A DNA stretch of 64,000 bases, from contig NZ_CP127915.1 in assembly GCF_032823475.1 (NCBI RefSeq), forward strand, positions 3,038,001-3,102,000, read 5' to 3'. The translations under genes were made by a program, and so were the position numbers. Source of the DNA: Acinetobacter sp. SAAs474 (GTDB lineage: Bacteria > Pseudomonadota > Gammaproteobacteria > Pseudomonadales > Moraxellaceae). Below the pieces are notes generated by a model. The model saw only the letters and a list, made by a program, of their open reading frames with translations, ran no database searches and had not been told where the DNA came from. This document shows, one piece after another, positions 1 to 22,039 of this stretch; positions within the stretch are counted from its first letter, which is position 1, and each line of letters starts with the position of its first letter.

Positions 1-3000
1 ATGAGTAACCCTGTCTTTGGGATGAGTCTAATGAATAAAGCATTGCTTTTTGCTTAGCTTGATTCATTTCGCTTGCATTAGTTAGATCAAACTCTCGCAA
101 TTTTAAAGCTTGAGTCCTTTTAAACTGATCAATCTCATACCGAGTTTGTGTATCTAATGCTTTTTTTCTCAAAGCAATTTCAGCTTCAGAATATTGACCC
201 TCTGCAGTTAAACGCTGAATATTAATATCACGCGTGTTTTGAAGCTTTTGCTCTTCAGTCCACTTGTATGCATTTAATTCAGCATCTAATTGCAGTTTAG
301 CAATCTGATCTTGAGCATCATAACGAGCATTGATTTGGGGAATTAAAGCTTGTTGGCCAAGAATAGTCGCTCTATTGATTTCTTCATCACGAAGCTTAGA
401 ACGCTTAACGGCATCAGTGTCATATTGAATTTGAAGCTGTTTGACTTCTTCCTCAGTTTTGGCACGGGCCTTATAAGCCTCATCCTGAAACTTAGACAAG
501 TCTTTAATTGCACTCATTATATTTTCAGGATCTTTACCCAAGATTTCACTAATCTTATTGTAGTAGCTATCTTGCTTTGAGAGATGACTGGCAGCCTTAG
601 TTTTACCTAATTTCCCCTTACCATCATAATCCCAGCCAATACCATTTTTACCAACAATCTTTTCGATGGTACGGTAATCAAGATTATCATTAGTTAATGC
701 CTTTCTTGATGATGCATAACTCTTTCCTGACATGACCTCCTGTACAAAAAACTTTGCCATTGCATCTAGTGAATCTTGGGTTTGCTGAATCTTCCCCTTG
801 CTATCCAAAAGGCCTTGACCTTGGAGAGATTGCATTAACTGAGTTGATCTTACTTTTTGCCACGAAAGAAAGCCTGTATTGGTGTAACCATTATTACTAT
901 CCTTGTGACTCCCAAACATAGCATCTGCTCTATAATCATTTTCACGGCCAACCTGTGCAGTCATCACACGAGCTTGTTTATCACCTAAACCAGCATTTCT
1001 AAATGCCTGATAAACTCGAAGCATATTCCGTACTTTTTCATCATTACCAGCTAAAAGAGCAGCTTGTTTTTCGGATAGCTTTAAATGCTTTTCTTTCTCC
1101 TTGGTTGCTTCACGCTCTGCATTATTTCTATCGTCAATAATTTTTTTATTGGCTTGCTCAATCGCATTAACACGTAATGCCTCTTGGGCCAACTCTGTAG
1201 TGAACTTAACATTGTTCTTTCTAGCCCACTGTGATGCCTCGAGTATTGCCTTGATTTGATCTTCAGATAAACCTTTTGCGAGTAATTGCTGAGTAAAAAC
1301 AGCTTCAAACTCTTTATTGTACAGAGATGATTTATAGTCTTTTTGTGCTTTTGCTGCCTTTTGTGCTGCAATTTCATTAGCACTTAAGCTCTTTGTATTT
1401 TCATCAACACCGACGGCACTTGTTTGTGCATCACGCCCTGCCAATACAACTTCTCGGCCAAAAAGATGTAGCTTTTCCTTAGAATTTTTGGACTCCTCAG
1501 TGTGTTTAACAAATTGAAAGATATTTTCTTTTAATGCGGTGTAAATATCTTTACTGATCCGCAGTTCATTAAACTTTTTCAAAGCGGTAGTCATGCTGAT
1601 AGTGCCATTCTGAGCATCGTCAACAACCTTAACTATATCTTTGTTACCAGAGTATAGTCGCTTAATTGCAGTCAACTGAATGTTAACCTGACTACTAGAT
1701 TCAGCTAATGCTTTATTTTGGCGCTCGAAAGCCTCTGCCATATCATTAATGGCATCATCTTTCTCAAGCCCCTTAAGTGCAAGTAGCTCATTCTTAGCTT
1801 TTTTGGCAACACTGGCTTGTTCTTCTAGTTTTTTATTAGCCTCTGATGCTTTACCTTGCATATAAATATAACCAGCAGCCAAGGCGGTTACACTCCATGT
1901 CAATGCGCCCACTGGACCACCAACCAGGGCTAGCATACGAGATCCAGCCAATTGGCTAGCATTCAGTGCATTTTGTGCGGCAGTTTGAGCAGTAGTTGCA
2001 ATGGTTGATTGCTTTGAAGCTAAATTATAGGCAATCTCCGCTTGTGTTAATCGCATGGTTGCGGCTGCTCTAGCTGTTCGTGAAGCTGCCGAATTGTATT
2101 CAACACGAGCTAAATTTACCTCTGTTGCGGCTAATGCTGTTACTTGACGAGTTCTTTGTACCTCAGCTGCAGCTAAAGTGACTTGGCTCTGCAACTCAGC
2201 AGTCAAAGCAGCTCTTTTTGCTAGAGAGGTTGCAACTGATGTTTTGACAGCTATTGTTTGTGTCACAATCGCTTTTGTTAAAAATGCCACACCGCCAAGC
2301 ATGGCTATATTGGCAATATTGCTAAGATTCTCACCTAGAAATTGAATTGATGATGCTAGTGTTTTTGATGCGCCAGATGCCTGACCAGCACCGCCAACAA
2401 ATTTAGATACTTCGTTATTTAGAAGTGTGAGCGACTGGCCAATCGTTATATCTGTTTTAGCAAATAATTCATCAACAGAACCCTTGGCTTTGGTTAATGC
2501 TTTTACAAGTACATCACCAGTGATTTTTCCTTCTGCAGCAACTGATCTTAATTGACCTTTGGTAATACCCATACCTTCAGCAATCGCATCAGCTAAACCT
2601 GGTGTTTGCTCCATTACTGAGTTTAACTCTTCACCACGAAGCACACCGGATGCTAAGGCTTGCCCGAATTGGGTTAGCGCTGCCTCTGCTGCCTGAGTGC
2701 TGGCACCTGAAATTGCTACAGCTTTTGATACTGTTTCAGTCAATGCGGCAGTCTGTGTCATATCAATTTTTAGGCGTTTCGCATTATCACTAAAACGCTG
2801 ATAAACCTGGACAACTGAATCCCACGAAGCATAAGACTTTTGAGCAATCAAAAACGTATCATTCATTGCCCGGTTTAATTCTGTTTGCGAAGTTGTAACT
2901 AGCTTTAAACGGTTCTGTAAATTGGTGTATGCATCCATTTTGTTGATTGCAGTACCAACGGTCACAATCCTTGCCATATTTGCAGCTAGGCTACGTGCAG

Positions 3001-3142
3001 CGACCGACATACTATCCATTGATTTGGTGGCATATGTGCCATTCTTTTCAATACTTTTTAGCTCTCGGTTTATTACTTCCGCATTTCTTCTTGCGTGCTC
3101 TGTGCTAATTTCAATTACCAGACGGCTTCTTTGCTCTGTCAT
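1..3142 (-). CDS. Phage tape measure protein with embedded lysozyme-like domain (3' end cut by window)
   Basis: Tail length-determining protein; about 1047 codons are visible and the frame is still open at base 1. The start ATG at 3142 has an AGGA ribosome site about 8 bases upstream. The N-terminal ~200 residues match the tape-measure domain (for example GASTQAAEAALTQFGQAL and VMEQTPGLADAIAEGMGITK). Hydrophobic Ala-rich segments lie around residues 270-440 and long charged helical stretches follow. Residues ~690-850 look like the phage tail lysozyme fold: an Ala/Val-rich helix ending in the candidate catalytic Glu of VGRENDY, then a GxTNTGFLSW segment, so it probably also cuts peptidoglycan during DNA injection. 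It lies downstream of the tail chaperone, the usual order, though three cassettes intervene. Family is confident; the enzymatic domain is inferred from pattern. Confidence 0.93.
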   Translation of the reverse strand, partial: MTEQRSRLVIEISTEHARRNAEVINRELKSIEKNGTYATKSMDSMSVAARSLAANMARIVTVGTAINKMDAYTNLQNRLKLVTTSQTELNRAMNDTFLIAQKSYASWDSVVQVYQRFSDNAKRLKIDMTQTAALTETVSKAVAISGASTQAAEAALTQFGQALASGVLRGEELNSVMEQTPGLADAIAEGMGITKGQLRSVAAEGKITGDVLVKALTKAKGSVDELFAKTDITIGQSLTLLNNEVSKFVGGAGQASGASKTLASSIQFLGENLSNIANIAMLGGVAFLTKAIVTQTIAVKTSVATSLAKRAALTAELQSQVTLAAAEVQRTRQVTALAATEVNLARVEYNSAASRTARAAATMRLTQAEIAYNLASKQSTIATTAQTAAQNALNASQLAGSRMLALVGGPVGALTWSVTALAAGYIYMQGKASEANKKLEEQASVAKKAKNELLALKGLEKDDAINDMAEAFERQNKALAESSSQVNIQLTAIKRLYSGNKDIVKVVDDAQNGTISMTTALKKFNELRISKDIYTALKENIFQFVKHTEESKNSKEKLHLFGREVVLAGRDAQTSAVGVDENTKSLSANEIAAQKAAKAQKDYKSSLYNKEFEAVFTQQLLAKGLSEDQIKAILEASQWARKNNVKFTTELAQEALRVNAIEQANKKIIDDRNNAEREATKEKEKHLKLSEKQAALLAGNDEKVRNMLRVYQAFRNAGLGDKQARVMTAQVGRENDYRADAMFGSHKDSNNGYTNTGFLSWQKVRSTQLMQSLQGQGLLDSKGKIQQTQDSLDAMAKFFVQEVMSGKSYASSRKALTNDNLDYRTIEKIVGKNGIGWDYDGKGKLGKTKAASHLSKQDSYYNKISEILGKDPENIMSAIKDLSKFQDEAYKARAKTEEEVKQLQIQYDTDAVKRSKLRDEEINRATILGQQALIPQINARYDAQDQIAKLQLDAELNAYKWTEEQKLQNTRDINIQRLTAEGQYSEAEIALRKKALDTQTRYEIDQFKRTQALKLREFDLTNASEMNQAKQKAMLYSLDSSQRQGYS

Positions 3143-3707: not shown

Positions 3708-4658
3708 TTATTTCTCTAGGTACCAATGAATTGTGTGCACTGGCTGATTTCCAACATGGTTTAAATTGGTCATGCCACCCTCAATAGCTCGTCTATTTAA
3801 TAGATTTGCATAACCAACAATTTCATGAGTTAAACCGATAAGTTGACCAGCATAAGCACTTTGTATTGTTTGAAGTGCTGGATATATTTCATTCTTTACA
3901 TATTTAGCAAGTATTGGAACATACCACATTAGGAATTGCACATTCTTATCTTCATAAGGCTGCATGGCAATTAACTTAACTTCTTGTTTAGCTTTAACTT
4001 CCATTTCTAATAGATATTTAACAGCATCTTCAAAATGAATAGCCAATAATTCATGATAAGAGTTAATTTTAAAATGTCGGTTATGACGAGTCCAAACTTG
4101 TGCACGTAACCCATTATTACCATCAACCTTATGATCCACAATTTTTTGAAGCGTATCTTTTTGTTCAGGTGAAATGGTTTGGCGATCGTTTATTTTCCAT
4201 TGCATCACCATGGCATCATAAGCACGAATAACTGTTAAATGAAATTTTGCAGAAATCCACATTGCGTATGAATATATCAACTCTTTAACCGCATATGTAC
4301 CTTGCTCTCGACCTTTACCACGAATGATATTTATAGCCTTTTTGCATGATGTCGGATTTCCGACATCATAATATTCATCCTCAATAACACCAATTAACTC
4401 TTGAGTTTTTTCATTCTCAATGAAGTAGCTTGGTCTATCTTTTCTCTGGTCACCGCTCGCCTTATGCAAATCATTCAGACAATAACGCCCTTCATCATCT
4501 TGGCGAATAGAAAACTCACCAATAACTAAGGGTTGATTGTTTGGGTTTACGAAATTTTGTGTTAAATTAGTCATGTGTTTTACATCCTTTGTGATGGCAA
4601 CTAAACCTTGCGTTTGATTGGTAGTCTGGCAAGGTTTTTTTGTGCCTATTGATTTCAT
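3708..4658 (-). CDS. Antirepressor: KilA-N domain with P22AR C-terminal domain
   Basis: DNA-binding antirepressor-type protein. The KilA-N domain spans about residues 40-155 (GEFSIRQDDEGRYCLNDLHK, then YAVKELIYSYAMWISAKFH). The C-terminal half (RHNRHFKINSYHELLAIHFE) matches the P22 antirepressor C-terminal family. P22 Ant inactivates the prophage repressor. The ATG at 4658 overlaps the stop of the upstream Arc-like gene as ATGA. A second start, M29 at 4574 (MTNLTQNF), has AAGGATG upstream, and the 28 codons between contain a perfect 9-bp inverted repeat (AAACCTTGC/GCAAGGTTT). Initiation at 4574 with a structured leader is therefore a serious alternative. Confidence 0.85.
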   Translation of the reverse strand: MKSIGTKKPCQTTNQTQGLVAITKDVKHMTNLTQNFVNPNNQPLVIGEFSIRQDDEGRYCLNDLHKASGDQRKDRPSYFIENEKTQELIGVIEDEYYDVGNPTSCKKAINIIRGKGREQGTYAVKELIYSYAMWISAKFHLTVIRAYDAMVMQWKINDRQTISPEQKDTLQKIVDHKVDGNNGLRAQVWTRHNRHFKINSYHELLAIHFEDAVKYLLEMEVKAKQEVKLIAMQPYEDKNVQFLMWYVPILAKYVKNEIYPALQTIQSAYAGQLIGLTHEIVGYANLLNRRAIEGGMTNLNHVGNQPVHTIHWYLEK

Positions 4659-4965: not shown

Positions 4966-5232
4966 ATGAGTAGCGGTCATCTTCACCCTCAGTACAACCT
5001 TCGTTGGCCTAAAGAATTAAAAGAAAAAATTGCACAATCAGCTAAAAAGCATAATCGCTCAATGAATGCAGATATTGTCGCTCGCCTAGAGCAATCTTTA
5101 GCGAACGAAGAACTACCAACTATCACTCAAGCAGATAAAGACTATTTGACTAAAATTCAATCAATTGAAGAAAAGCTGGATATGATTATTAATAGCACTG
5201 ACGGTTTGCTGGGTAATAAAAAAGCACCTTAG
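4966..5232 (+). CDS. Mnt/Arc-like ribbon-helix-helix repressor (88 aa)
   Basis: Clear Arc/Mnt family protein: QYNLRWPKELKEKIAQSAKK followed by NRSMNADIVARLEQSL closely follows the pattern of P22 Mnt and Arc as I remember them (Arc QFNLRWPREV, Mnt NGRSMNSELLQIVQDAL). The C-terminal tail (TKIQSIEEKLDMI) could be a short coiled coil, where Mnt has its tetramerisation helix. Divergent from the Arc-Ant pair across 131 bases holding overlapping promoters, which is the P22 immI layout. The last codons overlap the terminator stem. Confidence 0.85.
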   Translation: MSSGHLHPQYNLRWPKELKEKIAQSAKKHNRSMNADIVARLEQSLANEELPTITQADKDYLTKIQSIEEKLDMIINSTDGLLGNKKAP

Positions 5233-5240
5233 GGTGCTTT
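5221..5240. terminator. Bidirectional terminator between convergent genes
   Basis: AAAGCACC TTAG GGTGCTTT is a perfect 8-bp stem flanked by A and T runs; it contains the stop codon of the Mnt-like gene and serves the convergent lipoprotein gene too. Confidence 0.85.
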
Positions 5241-5243
5241 TAT

Positions 5244-5768
5244 CTACCAGTTATCATTTAAACTGCTTGATGTGATAGCAGTCCTATACTGATCAATGAC
5301 ATTTTTTAATTTAACCTCAATTTTTTGTTGATGCTCAATCAAATTAATAGGAGCTTCCTTACCCATATTTGCATTATATCCACCTTGTACATAAGTTAGA
5401 TTTGTGCGAGTAATATCGGAAATAGCTACTCTAGCCTTATTATCCTTACTATCTATTTTGATAGTGAAATTAACTTTATCGTTACCAAATGCACCACAAT
5501 CAATAAAGCCGTCGCACGGATACTGAATATTACCCTTTCCAATTATTGATCCACTATCTTTATCTGCATACTGGATAACATTGTTAGCAGACTTAAAAGA
5601 TTGTGCTATCCAAATTTTTGAACCTTCAAAAATCTGATCTTTTGTTTTATTTGGAACCTCAATAACCTCAACTAAATCATTCATTTTTTTATCTGTTGGT
5701 GTTGGCATTGTCACACACCCACCTAACCCCAACCCCACAACCAAACACAACCCTAATATTTTTTTCAT
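5244..5768 (-). CDS. Lipoprotein with DUF4468-like domain
   Basis: Begins with a lipoprotein signal, MKKILGLCLVVGLGLGGCVT, with lipobox LGGC, so the mature protein starts at Cys18. The rest resembles the DUF4468 (TBP-like fold) family: EVPNKTKDQIFEGSKIWIAQ, then GSIIGKG and a second beta region NFTIKID. Phage-encoded lipoproteins are often expressed from the lysogen and can alter the envelope or exclude other phages, but nothing here proves that. It lies just downstream of the Panacea module, separated by that module's terminator. Confidence 0.7.
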   Translation of the reverse strand: MKKILGLCLVVGLGLGGCVTMPTPTDKKMNDLVEVIEVPNKTKDQIFEGSKIWIAQSFKSANNVIQYADKDSGSIIGKGNIQYPCDGFIDCGAFGNDKVNFTIKIDSKDNKARVAISDITRTNLTYVQGGYNANMGKEAPINLIEHQQKIEVKLKNVIDQYRTAITSSSLNDNW

Positions 5769-5826
5769 GAAATCATCCTCTTGAATGGTATCACGATACT
5801 AAATATTAGGTGGAAAGGGAATAAAA

Positions 5827-5844
5827 AACCACCGTGAGGTGGTT
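5827..5844 (-). terminator. Terminator of the Panacea module
   Basis: AACCACC GTGA GGTGGTT forms a 7-bp stem; on the minus strand it is followed by TTTTTTAT. Lies about 60 bases beyond the stop of the membrane-protein gene. Confidence 0.8.
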
Positions 5845-5904
5845 AATTAATCATGTAATGATTAGCCTGTAGACTCGGTATTTGCAGCAGGTAGTTTTTA
5901 TATT

Positions 5905-6807
5905 TTAGTTTTTTCCTTCGGGCTTTTCTGTATTTATAAAAAATAAACTGTTCTGATTATTTGACTTACTGTCATCTTGTTTAGGCCTAATATCTTGATC
6001 CTTGTGGGTATAAGCAATACAAATTGCACTAGCAATTACAGTTACTAAAAAACAACTAATACTTTTAGTATAAAAATCTATTTTTTTCTTACTAGGCTCT
6101 TTTCCATCATCAGAATCCTCATCTCTAGATCTTATGGAGGTAATCCATGATATTAATAATTTAAGCAATGTTAGTAAACAAATCATTAGAAAGGAAATAA
6201 CAAAGACCAAGTAGACTAATTTATTGTTACCTTCTAATAGCTTTACTGTTGAACTAACAATATTAATGCCACCAAAAACAGTAATAATAATTGTAGCAAA
6301 AACACCTAGAATAGTAACAAAGTTAGTTACCATATTATTGGACATGTCTTTTGCTTTTTTTGCTTGTTTTTTTGCAAATTCAGCTTGTTTTTGAGCAAGG
6401 TTAGCTACCCTATGCGCCTCTTTAGCGGCATCTAGCATAAATTTTTTTTGAATTAGCGCAAGCTCAATATGAGAGGCAAATTTTTCATAACAAGCAATTA
6501 CATGATCCCTACTTACGCTTACCTCATATATGTCAAACGTATCACTAATTTCCTCTATTACCGTAGTAATAAAACCATCAAAGGAATCTGATTTTACCTC
6601 TATGGATTTATCATTAAATACTAAATTAGAAATATCTTTATACGGTAAATTGTAAAATGTTTCCCTATCAGCTTTTATAATATAATTTTCATACTCTACC
6701 AAAACAAAAAACATTGAGGCTGTTTCTACAACAACCTCTCTATTGTTAAAATTTTCCGGATTTAAATGATTCTTTATAAAAGCATCCTGAGCAACATTCA
6801 TACGCAT
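5905..6807 (-). CDS. Coiled-coil multi-pass membrane protein, probable effector partner of a Panacea-domain antitoxin
   Basis: 300 residues with no family I can name. Residues 1-115 are a soluble N-terminal domain; ~118-155 form an Ala/Lys/Gln-rich helix (LAQKQAEFAKKQAKKAKD); three hydrophobic helices follow at about 160-185, 197-222 and 249-267, with a charged, Asn-rich tail. The start codon shares a base with the stop of the upstream gene (TAATG), so the pair is translated together. Panacea-type antitoxins are known to pair with many unrelated toxins, including membrane-acting ones, so a membrane-targeting toxin or abortive-infection effector is a reasonable inference. The second Met (residue 3) is an alternative start. 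Confidence 0.6.
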   Translation of the reverse strand: MRMNVAQDAFIKNHLNPENFNNREVVVETASMFFVLVEYENYIIKADRETFYNLPYKDISNLVFNDKSIEVKSDSFDGFITTVIEEISDTFDIYEVSVSRDHVIACYEKFASHIELALIQKKFMLDAAKEAHRVANLAQKQAEFAKKQAKKAKDMSNNMVTNFVTILGVFATIIITVFGGINIVSSTVKLLEGNNKLVYLVFVISFLMICLLTLLKLLISWITSIRSRDEDSDDGKEPSKKKIDFYTKSISCFLVTVIASAICIAYTHKDQDIRPKQDDSKSNNQNSLFFINTEKPEGKN

Positions 6808-7328
6808 TAAACATTAACCGATTTAGCAGATAATAGCTCATTATCAGAATATGTTAATTCAATACCTTTCATAATATCGGACTCAAAGTCTTTCCATGCT
6901 TCTTCTGTATGTGTGAGCTCAACAAGATCAAAAGCTTTCCATGGCGCATAGGTGCTTATAATCTTATTAGCAATATTGGTAAATTCATTGTCACCACTCA
7001 GCTCAAGTGGATCATACTCTTTTCGAGAAATACTGAATGTACCACTATCACATATTGTTAAAGATGCTTTAGGTTTAGAAATATGATGGAACCCAAATCC
7101 TTTGAATTCGTGATAGACCTCTTTAACAACGGGACCATACTGCCACTTTTGAATATGTTCACTGAACAATCGAGTACCGGTTTTCTTAAAGTAAGTACTA
7201 GCGATATAGTAAAGAATTTTTTGAAGCTTTAAAGGAGTTAATTCGCACAATGGATTTTCGGCATTTCTATTAACATACCAAACTATATAGTTAGCAATAT
7301 CCATAGCTGTATATTTTTTATTATCCAT
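6807..7328 (-). CDS. Panacea (DUF4065/SocA-like) antitoxin-domain protein
   Basis: 173 residues matching the Panacea/SocA-like family: MDIANYIVWYVN, LTPLKLQKILYYIASTYFKK, then HIQKWQYGPVVKEVYHEFKG and a C-terminal VELTHTEEAWKD block. The family neutralises diverse toxins and some members act as proteolysis adaptors. Start set at ATG 7328, preceded by GAGGTG; an in-frame GTG at 7340 would overlap that ribosome site. It is the first gene of a two-gene unit with its own promoter and terminator. Domain assignment is strong; antitoxin function is inferred from the pairing. Confidence 0.82.
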   Translation of the reverse strand: MDNKKYTAMDIANYIVWYVNRNAENPLCELTPLKLQKILYYIASTYFKKTGTRLFSEHIQKWQYGPVVKEVYHEFKGFGFHHISKPKASLTICDSGTFSISRKEYDPLELSGDNEFTNIANKIISTYAPWKAFDLVELTHTEEAWKDFESDIMKGIELTYSDNELLSAKSVNV

Positions 7329-7449
7329 ATTGCACCTCACTTAAAACACTTAAATCAACAGAACTTAGAATTACAAAACTAAGACTCAACATTGTCGAAA
7401 AATAGTGACTGTGTGCATTTCACATTTCCTTAATTTAGATACAACAAAA

Positions 7450-7483
7450 GACAAGATCTATTCTTGTCCATCTCCAAATTATA
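7450..7483 (-). promoter_or_regulatory. Extended -10 promoter and palindromic operator of the Panacea module
   Basis: On the minus strand TGCTATAAT gives a consensus extended -10 (TATAAT at 7483-7478) with a weak TTGCAT upstream. Starting about 10 bases downstream is the perfect inverted repeat GACAAGA-N5-TCTTGTC (7450-7468), placed at about +3 to +21, suitable for autoregulation. The 5' leader to the start codon would be about 140 bases. Confidence 0.55.
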
Positions 7484-7555
7484 GCATTTGCGATAAATAT
7501 GCAATACGTGGAACATAAAAATGTTTCACAAAAGTTTACACTAAAAAGAAACCAA

Positions 7556-8274
7556 TTACTTATTGGCTTCTTTTAAAAACTCACCATCCAAAGCGTAAAT
7601 ACATTCAATAAATAGCCCTTTATCAAAGTCGCAGCCAAACAACTCAAAGTAAGCTTGAATATCATGAAGTGAAATTTCTTGATAAATCGCGCTTACTTGA
7701 GTTGCTATGACTCGTCTGCACTTAGAAATATACGAGAATGCTTTAATCATATAGTTAGCAGTAAAACTATATTCAAGCTTTGACGGTGGTTCTATTCCAA
7801 GTTTTTTGTAAACTTCTTCGGTTTTTTCTGGTGCCCATCGGATACTTCGCTGTTTGTAGTGTTCGACGACTTTCCCACCTCATCAGCAACCGTTTTATTT
7901 TTTTCATCATGCAGTAGATAGGCTTTACTCAAACAGAAGTTTATAAGGTCTAAAGACTGCTCTGTACTTGTGCACAGCAATTCAGCATTTTGATGATTGT
8001 ATTCAAAAGGCTGGCCATCCTTTTCAATACCTTCCCAGTCGAGAATTAAATAAGCTACTGCCCGATTAAATGCTAAATTTGACGCAAGTGCAGACTCATC
8101 GGTAATCGGTTGAAATCCGCGTAATTCACGCTCGGCTTGCATGCCATTTAATTCTAAAGCTCGGTTAAAAGCTGGTCTACCTTTGTCTGCGATTAATAGC
8201 TTTGCGCCATCTTCAAAGTCAAACCAGCGTTGAGCATATTCGGCAACTTCACGTTTTTTAATTTCAATTTTCAT
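7556..8274 (-). CDS. Tail assembly chaperone, frameshifted long form (lambda GT equivalent)
   Basis: The minus-strand -1 frame is open from the lysine-rich end of the short chaperone through to 7556: after slippage it reads KLGIEPPSKLEYSFTANYMI and then KAFSYISKCRRVIATQ, ending GEFLKEANK. The apparent separate 64-residue frame at 7556-7750 has no ribosome site and is the T-like extension, not an independent gene. Long tail phages make both forms in a fixed ratio by -1 frameshifting. The coordinates span both frames; the shift occurs near 7801-7807. Confidence 0.72.
7792..8274 (-). CDS. Tail assembly chaperone, short form (lambda G equivalent)
   Basis: 160 residues, located between the tail tube gene and the tape measure region, the position of the G/GT chaperones. 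Start set at ATG 8274 (MKIEIKKREV), with GGAG 5-6 bases upstream; the longer TTG frame lacks a ribosome site. The mostly helical protein ends in a lysine-rich tail, HQKKPKKFTKNLE, encoded over the slippery sequence. The short form binds tape measure protein during tail assembly in lambda; here the role is inferred from position and the programmed frameshift. Confidence 0.8.
   Translation of the reverse strand: MKIEIKKREVAEYAQRWFDFEDGAKLLIADKGRPAFNRALELNGMQAERELRGFQPITDESALASNLAFNRAVAYLILDWEGIEKDGQPFEYNHQNAELLCTSTEQSLDLINFCLSKAYLLHDEKNKTVADEVGKSSNTTNSEVSDGHQKKPKKFTKNLE
7801..7807 (-). promoter_or_regulatory. -1 frameshift site of the tail assembly chaperone
   Basis: In the reading frame of the shorter protein the codons ACA AAA AAC form the heptamer A AAA AAC, a canonical X XXY YYZ slippery sequence, four codons before the TAG at 7792-7794. 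A second A6 run lies at 7822-7827. Slipping back one base at either joins the open frame that continues to 7556. Confidence 0.75.
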
Positions 8275-8302
8275 TATAACTCCAAGCCACAAGGGCCATT
8301 AA

Positions 8303-9217
8303 TTAAGGCCCAGCAACGACAGGGACACGGGTTAAAGTTGGCGCTTGATCAGCAACAGTGAATGTGAACTGGGTGTTTAGAATGTCGCCCATGCTGCCAC
8401 TAGGTAATGGTGCTGTTATTTTTAGGTTTGGTAGTTTTAGTGTGTACTTATTACCATCACTATCTTTAATTGAATACTGAAGACTGATCGACTCATTCAA
8501 GAACTGTTTTTCATAAAATTCAGCAGTATTTTTAGACCATGCAACTGTAAAGGTACCCGTGCCCTTCATGATAGTTTCGAGAATTGCGCTGATATTATTT
8601 TCGTAATTTAGGCATTTTTGCATTTGCATTGAGTTATCAATGGTTAGATCCAGTTGTGTGATACACATGCCAGCTTTAACTTCACCATCAATTAAAATAT
8701 CGCCAGTAGATAATGATGTAAATTGAGTTGCATCTTCTGCGGGTGTAACCGTTGTTGCCGGTGAGACCATATAAGCAGTGCGCTTCATTCCCATAATTGA
8801 GAATTTAGAAGTGACGATACCACCATCAGGAATAGATAAAGTCCACTGATTGATGTGGCAACCAGTAAACACTTGATAGTTTTCAATGTCTTTGAAGCCG
8901 CGAATGATTGAGAATGTTTTACGTGTATCACCGCCAAAAGTTAATACATTATTCACCCACTGATTGAATGCAACACCTTCAAGTAAGCTATCTTGAATAT
9001 CGTAAGCAAACTCCGTTTCCACATCACCAGTAACTTCTACACCAGTAACTAAAGTTCCAGCAGCAATACGGCTATCTTTGATCGTTTGTGATTCTGTGGT
9101 TTGTGCAGCAGCATCTAAGCTATTTGTTGTAAATGGAAGTGTTTTCCAAGTTGTGGCAATTACACCAGGTGCCGATTCCACACCATATGCACTTGTCTGT
9201 TTAGCGCCTGAACTCAT
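8303..9217 (-). CDS. Major tail tube protein
   Basis: 304 residues, of the Phage_tube_2 type: N-terminal SAYGVESAPGVIATTWKTLP, then RIAAGTLVTGVEVTGDVETE and a beta-rich core ending NTQFTFTVADQAPTLTRVP. Very strong ribosome site (AAGGAGGA) before ATG 9217, fitting a protein made in many copies. It follows the tail terminator gene, with a KilA-N/C4 cassette inserted between them, and precedes the chaperone. A terminator lies immediately upstream, so it needs either antitermination or a local promoter. Confidence 0.88.
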   Translation of the reverse strand: MSSGAKQTSAYGVESAPGVIATTWKTLPFTTNSLDAAAQTTESQTIKDSRIAAGTLVTGVEVTGDVETEFAYDIQDSLLEGVAFNQWVNNVLTFGGDTRKTFSIIRGFKDIENYQVFTGCHINQWTLSIPDGGIVTSKFSIMGMKRTAYMVSPATTVTPAEDATQFTSLSTGDILIDGEVKAGMCITQLDLTIDNSMQMQKCLNYENNISAILETIMKGTGTFTVAWSKNTAEFYEKQFLNESISLQYSIKDSDGNKYTLKLPNLKITAPLPSGSMGDILNTQFTFTVADQAPTLTRVPVVAGP

Positions 9218-9286: not shown

Positions 9287-9649
9287 CTAACAATGCCCTG
9301 CTTGCCGTGCTACATCTTGTTTATCTTCCCAATTGAACGCATCTACAATTCGGCCTTCAGGTTTATTACTAATTAGATCTCCATCTGAGATCATAGCTGC
9401 TTCTAATTGCTCTAATTTTGCTAAAGTTTCAATAAGATTGAATAACGGACGATGTGTAATTAGTATTTTGTGTTTCGGAAACTTTGCCTCAAGTGCTGTC
9501 TGCTTTTCTTCAAGATTGTATAAATTGGCCTTTGATGCGGCATGAATAACAAACTTTTCATCATTAATAATGAAGTCCACCTCAGTGTCGCTTTGATTTG
9601 CATTTCTGCATGCAAACACTAAATAAATATCATCATAAAAAACATTCAC
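9287..9649 (-). CDS. Hypothetical protein, coupled to the KilA-N/P63C gene
   Basis: 120 residues, no family recognised. A beta-rich N-terminus (VNVFYDDIYLVFACR) is followed by a helical region rich in Leu and Glu (NLEEKQTALEAKF, LIETLAKLEQLEAAM). The GTG at 9649 overlaps the upstream stop (GTGA) and has AGGAG 8 bases away, so it is preferred to the GTG at 9658. As second gene of a terminator-bounded cassette it probably works with the KilA-N protein. Confidence 0.7.
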   Translation of the reverse strand: MNVFYDDIYLVFACRNANQSDTEVDFIINDEKFVIHAASKANLYNLEEKQTALEAKFPKHKILITHRPLFNLIETLAKLEQLEAAMISDGDLISNKPEGRIVDAFNWEDKQDVARQAGHC

Positions 9650-10485
9650 ACTACACACTCCTGCTCAACCATCACTAAGCGTAATTGACCTTTTGCCTGT
9701 GGAAAGGCTTGATAACAACGAGCTGTAAAGTCTTGGTAATCAGTTGAACTATTTGCAATAACCTCAATAGAGTTAATCTGTTTTGATAGCATCTGTTCAC
9801 CACCATTGGTAAGCCATTGATGCATCTTTTCACCATCGCGCTTATTAGCTCGAATCTCTAAGAGAACTTCTTTTGGCATGATGATTCGATATATCCATTT
9901 ATTAGTGATATCACCAAATATGGCAGGACTACCACCAACATGATTATTAAATTTAGTGTTAGTTATTTTTGCTAATGCTTTGTAGTAAGAATCTGGAAAG
10001 CGTTTTTCCCAAGTTGATGCTGAAGGCAACAACATCAAGCGAATCATGTCTTGTACGGATGGTGGGGCTTGGTTTGCACGAATAAGGTTATCTATCTGTA
10101 AATCACACCAAACACCAAAGTGAACATTTAACCATCGTGCAAATGCGACTGCCAATTTAGGATGTAACCAAGTACCACCACCATTCTCAGAAGATCCATT
10201 TTTTACCTTAACTAGCCCTGTTTGCTTAGCTAAAGATAATAATTTTCTTTGTGATTTTGCGGAATCCCCATCCAACTCAATGATTTTATTGAAGTGTTCC
10301 AGAAAAGCGTATTTGTTATTTAATGAATGAGCTATTGCACAAAGATACTCTACAGTATCTCGCTGTCTTAGCCACATTAACGGCTTTTTTTCATATCTCT
10401 TTGCTGCCTCAGTAGCATTAAACCAACCTGAGTTATCAAAGGATTGATCTATATTTTCATACTTAATCTTTACTATTGTATTCAT
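9646..10485 (-). CDS. KilA-N domain protein with P63C C-terminal domain
   Basis: 279 residues. KilA-N features cover residues ~15-115 (GWFNATEAAKRYEKKPLMWL, GTWLHPKLAVAFARWLNVHF); the C-terminal half fits the P63C domain (FPDSYYKALAKI, PAIFGDITNKWIYRIIMP). KilA-N is a DNA-binding domain of phage antirepressor and regulatory proteins; KilA of P1 is toxic to the host. Start at ATG 10485 (MNTIVKIKYEN), with GGAG 7 bases upstream; a longer frame would enter the leader RNA. Expression is probably repressed by the C4-like RNA directly upstream, whose loop can pair with the ribosome site. Confidence 0.85.
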   Translation of the reverse strand: MNTIVKIKYENIDQSFDNSGWFNATEAAKRYEKKPLMWLRQRDTVEYLCAIAHSLNNKYAFLEHFNKIIELDGDSAKSQRKLLSLAKQTGLVKVKNGSSENGGGTWLHPKLAVAFARWLNVHFGVWCDLQIDNLIRANQAPPSVQDMIRLMLLPSASTWEKRFPDSYYKALAKITNTKFNNHVGGSPAIFGDITNKWIYRIIMPKEVLLEIRANKRDGEKMHQWLTNGGEQMLSKQINSIEVIANSSTDYQDFTARCYQAFPQAKGQLRLVMVEQECVV

Positions 10486-10507
10486 TGCTTTACTCCAACT
10501 ATTCATT

Positions 10508-10587
10508 AAAAAAAGAAAAGCCGACAAGAAGATGCAATGAATAGTCGAAACGACCATCTTCTCTTTCAGGAGCTACCCTAGTCGGCT
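10508..10587 (-). ncRNA. C4-like antisense RNA in the leader of the KilA-N/P63C gene
   Basis: About 80 nt on the minus strand. The outer stem AGCCGAC (10587-10581) pairs with GTCGGCT (10525-10519) and runs into TTTTCTTTTTTT, a terminator. Inside, AGAAGATG pairs with CATCTTCT, and GTCG-TTT-CGAC forms a small hairpin. The segment CGACUAUUCAUU (10546-10535) can pair over 12 bases, one of them G-U, with AAUGAAUAGUUG (10507-10496), right next to the GGAG of the downstream gene. This is the mechanism of P1/P7 C4 RNA, which controls ant. Acinetobacter is reported to carry a family of C4-like small RNAs, to my recollection. Confidence 0.72.
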
Positions 10588-21617: not shown

Positions 21618-21694
21618 TGGTGGGCCTTATCAGATTTGAACTGATTATCTTCCTGTTATGAGCAGGGTGCTTATACCACTTAAGCTTAAGGCCC
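21618..21694 (-). tRNA. tRNA with CAT anticodon (Met or Ile2)
   Basis: Cloverleaf on the minus strand: acceptor GGGCCTT/AAGGCCC, D-stem GCTT/AAGC, anticodon loop CTCATAA, T-arm ATCAG-TTCAAAT-CTGAT, A discriminator and encoded CCA. One C-A mismatch at the top of the anticodon stem. CAT could be Met or, if lysidine-modified, Ile (AUA). Phage-borne. Confidence 0.88.
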
Positions 21695-21696
21695 AT

Positions 21697-21773
21697 TGGC
21701 ACGCCATACAGGATTCGAACCTGTGACCATCTACTTAGAAGGCAGATGCTCTATCCAACTGAGCTAATGGCGT
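21697..21773 (-). tRNA. tRNA-Arg (TCT)
   Basis: Cloverleaf on the minus strand: acceptor ACGCCAT/ATGGCGT, D-stem GCTC, anticodon loop CTTCTAA (TCT), T-arm ACAGG-TTCGAAT-CCTGT, G discriminator and encoded CCA. Reads AGA, a codon favoured in AT-rich phage genes. Two bases from the other tRNA. Confidence 0.93.
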
Positions 21774-22039
21774 ATGATCACCACAGAAGATCTATGCTGT
21801 GGCCCATAGCTACTCCTTACTTTGATTGCCACCTAATAGGCACGGTACTAATCAATTTTCAGTTTCGATATCATATGTTTTGTCGGGGCATCACTCCCAA
21901 TTCTGATTTCACTTTCCTGCATATCCTATTCATGCTCGATGAACTGCATGGGTTGTACCCTCTTTCGTAGGGTCTAAACGCTGCCAATCAAAGCCGATTA
22001 GCACAAAGTTAAAACTTCATGACTTTTCTCCTGACAACA
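21774..22039. other. Gene-free stretch between the tRNAs and the late-switch terminator
   Basis: About 270 bases. On the minus strand I see only tiny frames with partial ribosome sites (for example a 9-codon frame after AAGGAG directly before the tRNAs) and a small hairpin ACCCT/AGGGT near 21955-21975. It is the place where a late promoter and a Q-type loading site would be expected, but neither can be identified by eye. Confidence 0.4.

Follow-up and report, generated by a model that had tools for sequence, protein, structure and literature searches.

PanAT systems are type II toxin-antitoxin (TA) pairs, and nine partners of the Panacea antitoxin have been validated as toxins (PMC8832971, Kurata 2022). 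PanT_Hel.sp., from Helicobacter sp. 13S00482-2, has a coiled-coil N-terminus and C-terminal transmembrane segments (TMs) and depolarises the membrane without SYTOX entry (PMC8832971). The Panacea domain itself has been proposed as the PanAT sensor (PMC10440598), and the same source describes RosmerTA (toxin RmrT, Gordonia phage Kita), a phage-borne TA with a membrane-depolarising toxin and a role in anti-phage defence. For control through a leader, the toiL upstream open reading frame (uORF) pairs with the topAI ribosome-binding site, which opens upon ribosome arrest (PMC12121999). What fires prophage TA pairs is a long-standing question.

Here we have analysed a window, meaning the whole stretch of 64,000 nucleotides, taken from a 3.5-Mb genome; its minus strand carries a tailed-phage prophage. 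The host is called Acinetobacter-type because Acinetobacter is the organism of every named relative of the PanT protein described below in a search of 5.8 billion proteins, and because all six phage records with DNA common to window positions 5000-8500 are Acinetobacter phages. Within the prophage we find what is probably a PanAT cassette, in which a depolarising PanT would be neutralised by PanA and PanA synthesis would be set by a dedicated uORF leader. The elements of the unit are as follows.

7544-7574, minus strand: hairpin and T run where the preceding tail ORF ends, a possible terminator (fold -13.4 kcal/mol)
7508-7529, no strand assigned: candidate regulator site ahead of the promoter, the inverted repeat GTGAAAC-N8-GTTCCAC
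7478-7486, minus strand: extended -10 promoter element TGCTATAAT, kept in close leaders
7450-7468, minus strand: 5' hairpin GACAAGA-N5-TCTTGTC, then a T run; two pairs changed on both sides; also terminator-like
7386-7418, minus strand: uORF1, 10 codons, MHTVTIFRQC-stop, with the conserved ending CGA CAA TGT TRR
7364-7383, minus strand: small stem CTTAG-N10-CTAAG between the uORF1 stop and PanA (consensus fold of nine leaders)
7321-7392, minus strand: possible uORF2, 23 codons, starting at the ATG inside CAATGTT (the uORF1 end) and ending over the PanA start
7333-7340, minus strand: Shine-Dalgarno of PanA, GTGAGGTG, with predicted pairing to the uORF1 region in most leaders
6807-7328, minus strand: PanA, putative Panacea-domain antitoxin (PF13274; the listed ORF, 6807-7340, extends to a GTG at 7340)
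5905-6807, minus strand: PanT, putative membrane toxin, 300 aa (PHROG 38724, E 4e-42; hydropathy; AlphaFold2 model)
5827-5844, minus strand: intrinsic-terminator-like hairpin closing the unit (7-pair stem with 4 G-C, T tail; -11.5 kcal/mol in context)

A sequence-only reading of this DNA had described a self-contained minus-strand unit, and its promoter, Panacea gene, 300-residue partner and terminator were all found: the extended -10 and the palindrome GACAAGA-N5-TCTTGTC are both present, and the two genes are joined by TAATG with an overlap of 1 nt. That reading, which spanned 5827..7483, overlooked the 10-codon uORF, and the inverted repeat at 7508-7529 falls outside its coordinates. A sigma-70 consensus scan did not list the PanAT promoter, and promoter-like sites were not in excess (5 vs 10.4 in shuffles); the promoter call therefore depends on the extended -10 being present and conserved. 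Terminator-like sites in 5700-7800 numbered three, against a shuffle mean of 0.9 (sd 1.1); besides the closing hairpin these are the start-site palindrome and one within PanT, and the hairpin at 7544-7574 is absent from the terminator-scan list.

The first gene matches Pfam SocA_Panacea, PF13274 (DUF4065), with an E-value of 3.3e-21 and 76.7 bits over a cut-off of 25.7. Its true start is most likely the ATG at 7328 rather than the listed GTG at 7340, given that this GTG lies within the Shine-Dalgarno and that relatives start at the equivalent of 7328. Against the SocA equivalog NF047745 (type VI antitoxin) PanA scores 72.5 bits, under the cut-off of 190, and it has no PADLOC match.

The sequence-only reading also drew the partner as a soluble N-terminus, a helical rod and three membrane helices, and the AlphaFold2 model of PanT (mean pLDDT 77.5, pTM 0.53) bears this out. 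The model has a helical N-domain (about 1-94) with a beta hairpin, a single 92-residue helix (100-191) continuing into TM1, and two further helices (196-230 and 245-270), with pLDDT below 50 in 231-243 and in the tail, 270-300; hydropathy places hydrophobic segments at 163-181, 197-215 and 249-267. Identity to the window PanT over the 66 other rows of alignment A2 rises from 36% in the N-domain and 46% in the rod to 77% in TM1, and is 55% in TM2, 36% in TM3 and 16% in the tail; the invariant residues are residue 145 and ten within 166-180. Conservation thus peaks in TM1, and it is the membrane module that stays constant, which would suit a regulated effector. PanT reaches no curated Pfam or NCBIfam cut-off and matches two PHROGs of unknown function.

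The two genes co-occur in other genomes, where a failure to do so was one of the observations that the sequence-only reading had set against its own proposal. The protein search gave 68 PanT matches, one being PanT itself. In all 20 loci fetched by the toxin (two viral contigs and 18 genome loci), PanA, called with its own HMM at E <= 1e-3, lies directly upstream of PanT on the same strand, with gaps of -20 to +22 nt. Across 175 genomes of the genus, PanT is found in 10, each with PanA beside it (10/10), although one of these (G170; G numbers denote genomes and L numbers loci) holds a truncated remnant, and an ORF near it looks transposase-like by eye. A family-alignment search gave 33 viral rows, two of them fetched before, and thus 31 further viral loci: PanA is present in 31/31, and a PanT ORF is recognised by HMM in 30, of which one (L094) is broken. 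Together with four other loci, two of which are among the 20, PanA is found in 35/35. No plasmid match was found.

PanT relatives span Moraxellaceae, Bacillota, Actinomycetota and Helicobacter; hosts of PanAT loci include Acinetobacter, Moraxella cuniculi, Psychrobacter, Niallia, Oceanobacillus, Staphylococcus edaphicus, Roseburia, Paraeggerthella and Helicobacter rodentium. In Moraxella phage Mcat28 the pair stands just ahead of the tail terminator gene, and in Staphylococcus phage SpT152 a PanA ORF adjoins a PanT relative annotated as two pieces at the record ends. With relatives of this breadth, PanT does not make up a new toxin family. The earlier remark that no known toxin family was recognised in the partner is not supported at the family level: its relatives extend over several phyla, every toxin-fetched locus has a Panacea gene next to them, and the published PanT_Hel.sp. 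is described as sharing its architecture. The candidate TA pair of a Panacea protein with a coiled-coil, three-TM partner is supported by its co-occurrence and by the published PanAT systems; its novelty is not, at the family level.

A Panacea match occurs in 26 of the 175 genus genomes: 10 with PanT, 11 with low-scoring frames of 251-268 aa and 5 with other partners; PanT is thus absent from 16/26, where other Panacea partners exist. The 11 Panacea-like frames (L049-L059) score 21.8-27.5 bits, about the cut-off, and may not be antitoxins; nearby ORFs have the look of cobalamin adenosyltransferase and glycerophosphodiester phosphodiesterase, which we assume from the sequences by inspection. 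At three loci (L047 and L048, from G004 and G138, and L067, from G185 of the H. rodentium genus) the order is partner first, with the Panacea gene directly behind a gene of 240-330 aa that has an N-terminal hydrophobic part (computed for L067, by eye for the others); that they are GAF-like, as in toxFtsL, would be a guess, and Pfam gave no match for L048. In Mcat28, a 21-codon ORF, MKTLAKVFIIIVLLLLSYPAY, lies antisense just before the PanA gene (L001:4146-4211, minus strand); it presumably has the look of an Ibs-like type I toxin, a kind of small hydrophobic peptide, and the region has no Rfam match.

The unit had also been said to interrupt the tail operon, and it does sit there, with tube and chaperone-like ORF on one side and tape measure on the other.

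8303-9217: tail tube gene (PF18906)
7556-7750: tail chaperone-like ORF (Pfam Phage_TAC_18 below cut-off; PHROG 3817, tail chaperonin, E 1e-4)
2-3142: tape measure ORF (match to L008:8583-12881, itself Pfam TMP_3)

The tube, tail and KilA-N proteins of the window were identified by Pfam, and the head and terminase ORFs were recognised by reading the ORF list only. Between the tail chaperone-like ORFs and the tape measure lie PanA-PanT and, by Pfam, a DUF4468 protein, an Arc-type regulator and a KilA-N protein. The PanAT unit is one among several accessory genes at this tail-gene site. In all, two KilA-N proteins, one with P63C, count among the late-region accessory genes (3708-4658 and 9646-10557, both minus strand; Pfam). 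The Arc-type ribbon-helix-helix gene (4966-5232) is on the opposite, plus strand, has relatives near PanAT in L005 and L091, and is a candidate binder of an inverted repeat. Elsewhere in the window, at 21621-21952 on the minus strand, two tRNAs lie beside a Pseudomonadales-1 RNA (RF03046, 91.1 bits).

The site of the cassette varies among prophages. In L008, as in the window, tube and chaperones precede it and tape measure follows; tube and chaperone ORFs precede it in L005 and L091, and tape measure follows in L075 and L092. An integrase (PF00589, Pfam) adjoins it in L006, L007, L083, L084 and L085; ORF reading alone places it after lysis-type or end-of-phage genes (e.g., in L011, L089 and L093) and at still other places in L073, L074 and L080. 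These varied sites indicate that the cassette behaves as a mobile accessory unit. Furthermore, the two genes recur with their inverted repeat, promoter, hairpin and uORF, both next to integrases and at other sites of different prophages, including tail genes, which suggests that the mobile unit is larger than PanA and PanT.

The regions upstream of PanA are alike among Acinetobacter PanAT pairs at different sites, and behind the start-site hairpin lies the conserved uORF1, which ends CGA-CAA-UGU-stop (Arg-Gln-Cys). We gathered 19 distinct leaders by motif from the fetched loci. Seventeen carry 10 codons ending R-Q-C-stop (counting the first ATG in L008); the other two read MKHRQC-stop (L086) and a longer uORF ending YRQ-stop (L010). 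Among 13 compared ten-codon leaders CGACAATGT is invariant, third codon positions included, while other codons vary; since the leaders were gathered by that very motif, this invariance is inflated. The 22-nt pattern YACTNNNYTNCGACAATGTTRA occurs in 8 of the 175 genus genomes, once each and always before PanAT, with 0 hits for the reversed control; the other two of the 10 PanT genomes are G077, with the YRQ form, and the remnant G170, without the motif. The pattern has 31 viral hits, 9 with an in-frame ATG and all 9 on PanAT contigs: 7/9 show PanA in the fetched stretch, and the other two (L128, L130) end early but belong to the same contigs as L006 and L084, where PanA is present. The remaining 22, of which 17 are one recurrent sequence, lack an in-frame ATG over 50 codons, and their fetched stretches show no PanA. 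R1, a covariance model built on 15 leaders, found 8 of 348 family genomes, all with PanAT and all already in the model; with stricter filters and the best 8 of 1041 to 2320 first-look candidates per genome scored in the listed rows (2374 in one row), it weakly supports exclusivity of the leader. Stronger evidence comes from searching the genus for the exact pattern.

The conserved short uORF before the regulated gene is a property of the RQC-type branch only. The motif is absent from genus PanA genes with other partners (L035, L037, L040), and CGACAATG is absent from seven distinct Acinetobacter-like PanAT leaders (L005, L072, L073, L074, L075 = L076, L090, L092), two of which show partial likeness (MTHQRC in L072, MKIYQCY in L092), and from the PanAT loci of Moraxella, Psychrobacter, Helicobacter, Bacillota and Eggerthellaceae. 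Rfam gave three hits far below gathering scores in one search and no leader match in another, and in the open-access articles that we searched we came across no Panacea pair described with a leader peptide. In 17/19 leaders the stop of the possible uORF2 falls between -13 and +14 nt relative to the PanA ATG; that this frame could link translation of uORF1 to that of PanA is a matter of speculation.

In predicted folds the PanA ribosome-binding site tends to be masked by pairing with uORF1, although for the window alone no more so than in shuffles. In a consensus fold of nine leaders, CACC of uORF1 pairs with GGTG of the Shine-Dalgarno, CACT with an AGTG upstream of it, and TCGACA with TGTTGA; in the window leader one of the four CACC-GGTG pairs is broken. 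Most of these long-range pairs never vary and are therefore uninformative, and the small stem CTTAG-N10-CTAAG, invariant in the nine close leaders, likewise gives no covariation evidence. The pairing probability between Shine-Dalgarno and uORF1 averages 0.53 over the 19 related leaders vs 0.27 with uORF1 shuffled, with values of 0.00-0.12 in L010, L077, L081 and L089; for the window leader it is 0.42 vs 0.31 in the control, a level that 35% of shuffles reach (not significant). A species swap test of leader pairing was weak (p 0.06, 18 leaders).

Taken as a PanAT cassette with a uORF leader, the locus might work as follows. The cassette would be expressed on its own from the lysogen, and PanA would bind and silence PanT, whose translation would follow that of PanA via the TAATG coupling. 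Were PanA lost or titrated, PanT could assemble in the inner membrane via its helical rod and conserved TM1 and dissipate the membrane potential, so that growth would stop, e.g., in a cell infected by another phage or cured of the prophage. In the Acinetobacter branch, the mRNA fold would sequester the PanA ribosome-binding site by pairing it with uORF1, and the site would open when ribosomes translate uORF1 (ending Arg-Gln-Cys-stop) or arrest there, such that antitoxin output might follow the translation state. Abortive infection by PanAT is plausible by analogy, as RosmerTA, a phage TA with another membrane-depolarising toxin, defends against phages (PMC10440598).

In the boldest reading the leader would be a translation sensor, with a ribosome slowed or arrested at CGA-CAA-UGU controlling the antitoxin ribosome-binding site and another phage's takeover of translation freeing the toxin; we hold this version to be rather unlikely as it stands, but if true it would describe an antitoxin-first TA whose trigger is read by a leader peptide and whose cassette moves between phages with its sensor. 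Alternatively, the pair may be an ordinary PanAT whose leader is no more than a conserved 5' UTR, a stability hairpin that came down with the cassette, and whose uORF1 is a by-product, with regulation by protein decay and a binder of the inverted repeat. This reading is doubtful; in its favour, PanAT pairs elsewhere lack the motif, the long-range pairing is moderately supported and, in the window alone, unsupported, and the inverted repeat, as GTGRAAC-N5-9-GTTYCAC, is present in 15/19 leaders (not L008, L010, L026 and L033) and at a single place in the whole genome. What speaks against a by-product is the invariance of CGACAATGT in the 13 ten-codon leaders, inflated though it is by motif gathering, and the lack of a reading frame in the 22 chance matches to the pattern.

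The sequence-only reading placed a palindrome at the start site, which is indeed present and perfect in the window; taken as a DNA operator for autorepression, it fares poorly. In relatives the arms show G-U or compensating changes at two of six core pairs (A-U/G-U/G-C and C-G/U-G/U-A), and the core is paired in 77/78 cells across the 13 of 19 leaders found by pattern, with a single break in L006. The independent, pattern-free consensus fold of nine leaders also has both-sided changes at two hairpin pairs, with few single breaks. These G-U and both-sided changes in relatives argue for an RNA hairpin and against an operator, as does the fact that PanA matches the Panacea family only and no HTH family in Pfam; autorepression through this site therefore strikes us as very improbable, and the inverted repeat at 7508-7529 is the better candidate protein-binding site. 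PanT could also be a superinfection-exclusion or lysogenic-conversion membrane protein, with PanA as its chaperone or regulator, for it is a membrane protein with its own promoter, carried by temperate phages at accessory-gene sites. The validation of nine Panacea partners as toxins (PMC8832971) and the retention of PanA-PanT pairing in distant phyla leave such a role with a slim chance.

Among the known systems close to this cassette is PanT_Hel.sp. (WP_095295403.1), as a counterpart of the putative toxin. Compared by description, both proteins have a helical or coiled-coil N-terminal part and C-terminal TMs, features that the model and hydropathy give for PanT. Across 19 genomes of the H. 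rodentium genus we found 11 Panacea loci in 8 genomes, and three Panacea neighbours match the PanT HMM: L060 (6.7e-70), which is the H. rodentium protein itself and part of that HMM, L066 (1.3e-46) and L063 (5.4e-42). Furthermore, hhalign aligned the PanT family with a Helicobacter rodentium-led Panacea-partner alignment at a probability of 99.4% (E 2.4e-21). Among the other partner ORFs of at least 80 aa in the Helicobacter stretches read, none has several C-terminal TMs, and no partner was seen at L062. PanT_Hel.sp. is thus probably a relative of PanT, although its strain may lie outside the H. rodentium genus. The Helicobacter PanAT leader has no uORF motif.

Other resemblances are looser. 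The PADLOC candidate PDC-M18B bears a weak likeness to PanT over the hydrophobic TM part only (E 1.5e-3, 15.9 bits), reaches E<=0.01 in 8 of 63 PanT alignment members (best 3.4e-5) and has none to PanA. RosmerTA shares with PanAT its phage-borne TA nature, but the antitoxins differ and the two are likened by toxin description (PMC10440598). The toiL leader of the E. coli topAI-yjhQ operon is alike in being a short conserved uORF upstream of a TA operon; it has a hairpin between the uORF and the first gene's ribosome-binding site, which here is predicted for the leaders as a group and, in the window alone, does not exceed shuffles. It differs in its genes, in that the first gene there is the toxin and here the antitoxin, and in that stalling is shown there, whereas arrest is here a proposal from sequence (PMC12121999).

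With the PanAT systems themselves the locus shares an antitoxin placed first and a toxin second, short spacing and retention across species and prophages, and membrane toxins, like the putative one here, form one main class among them (PMC8832971). It departs from them in its leader with a uORF and structured RNA: the main texts of the two PanAT papers do not contain the words 'leader peptide' or 'uORF'. What is new here is a leader with a uORF ahead of a known kind of TA pair. Its leader peptide, whose ending is invariant and which goes with PanAT, is a specific candidate for an additional input and would be simple to mutate.
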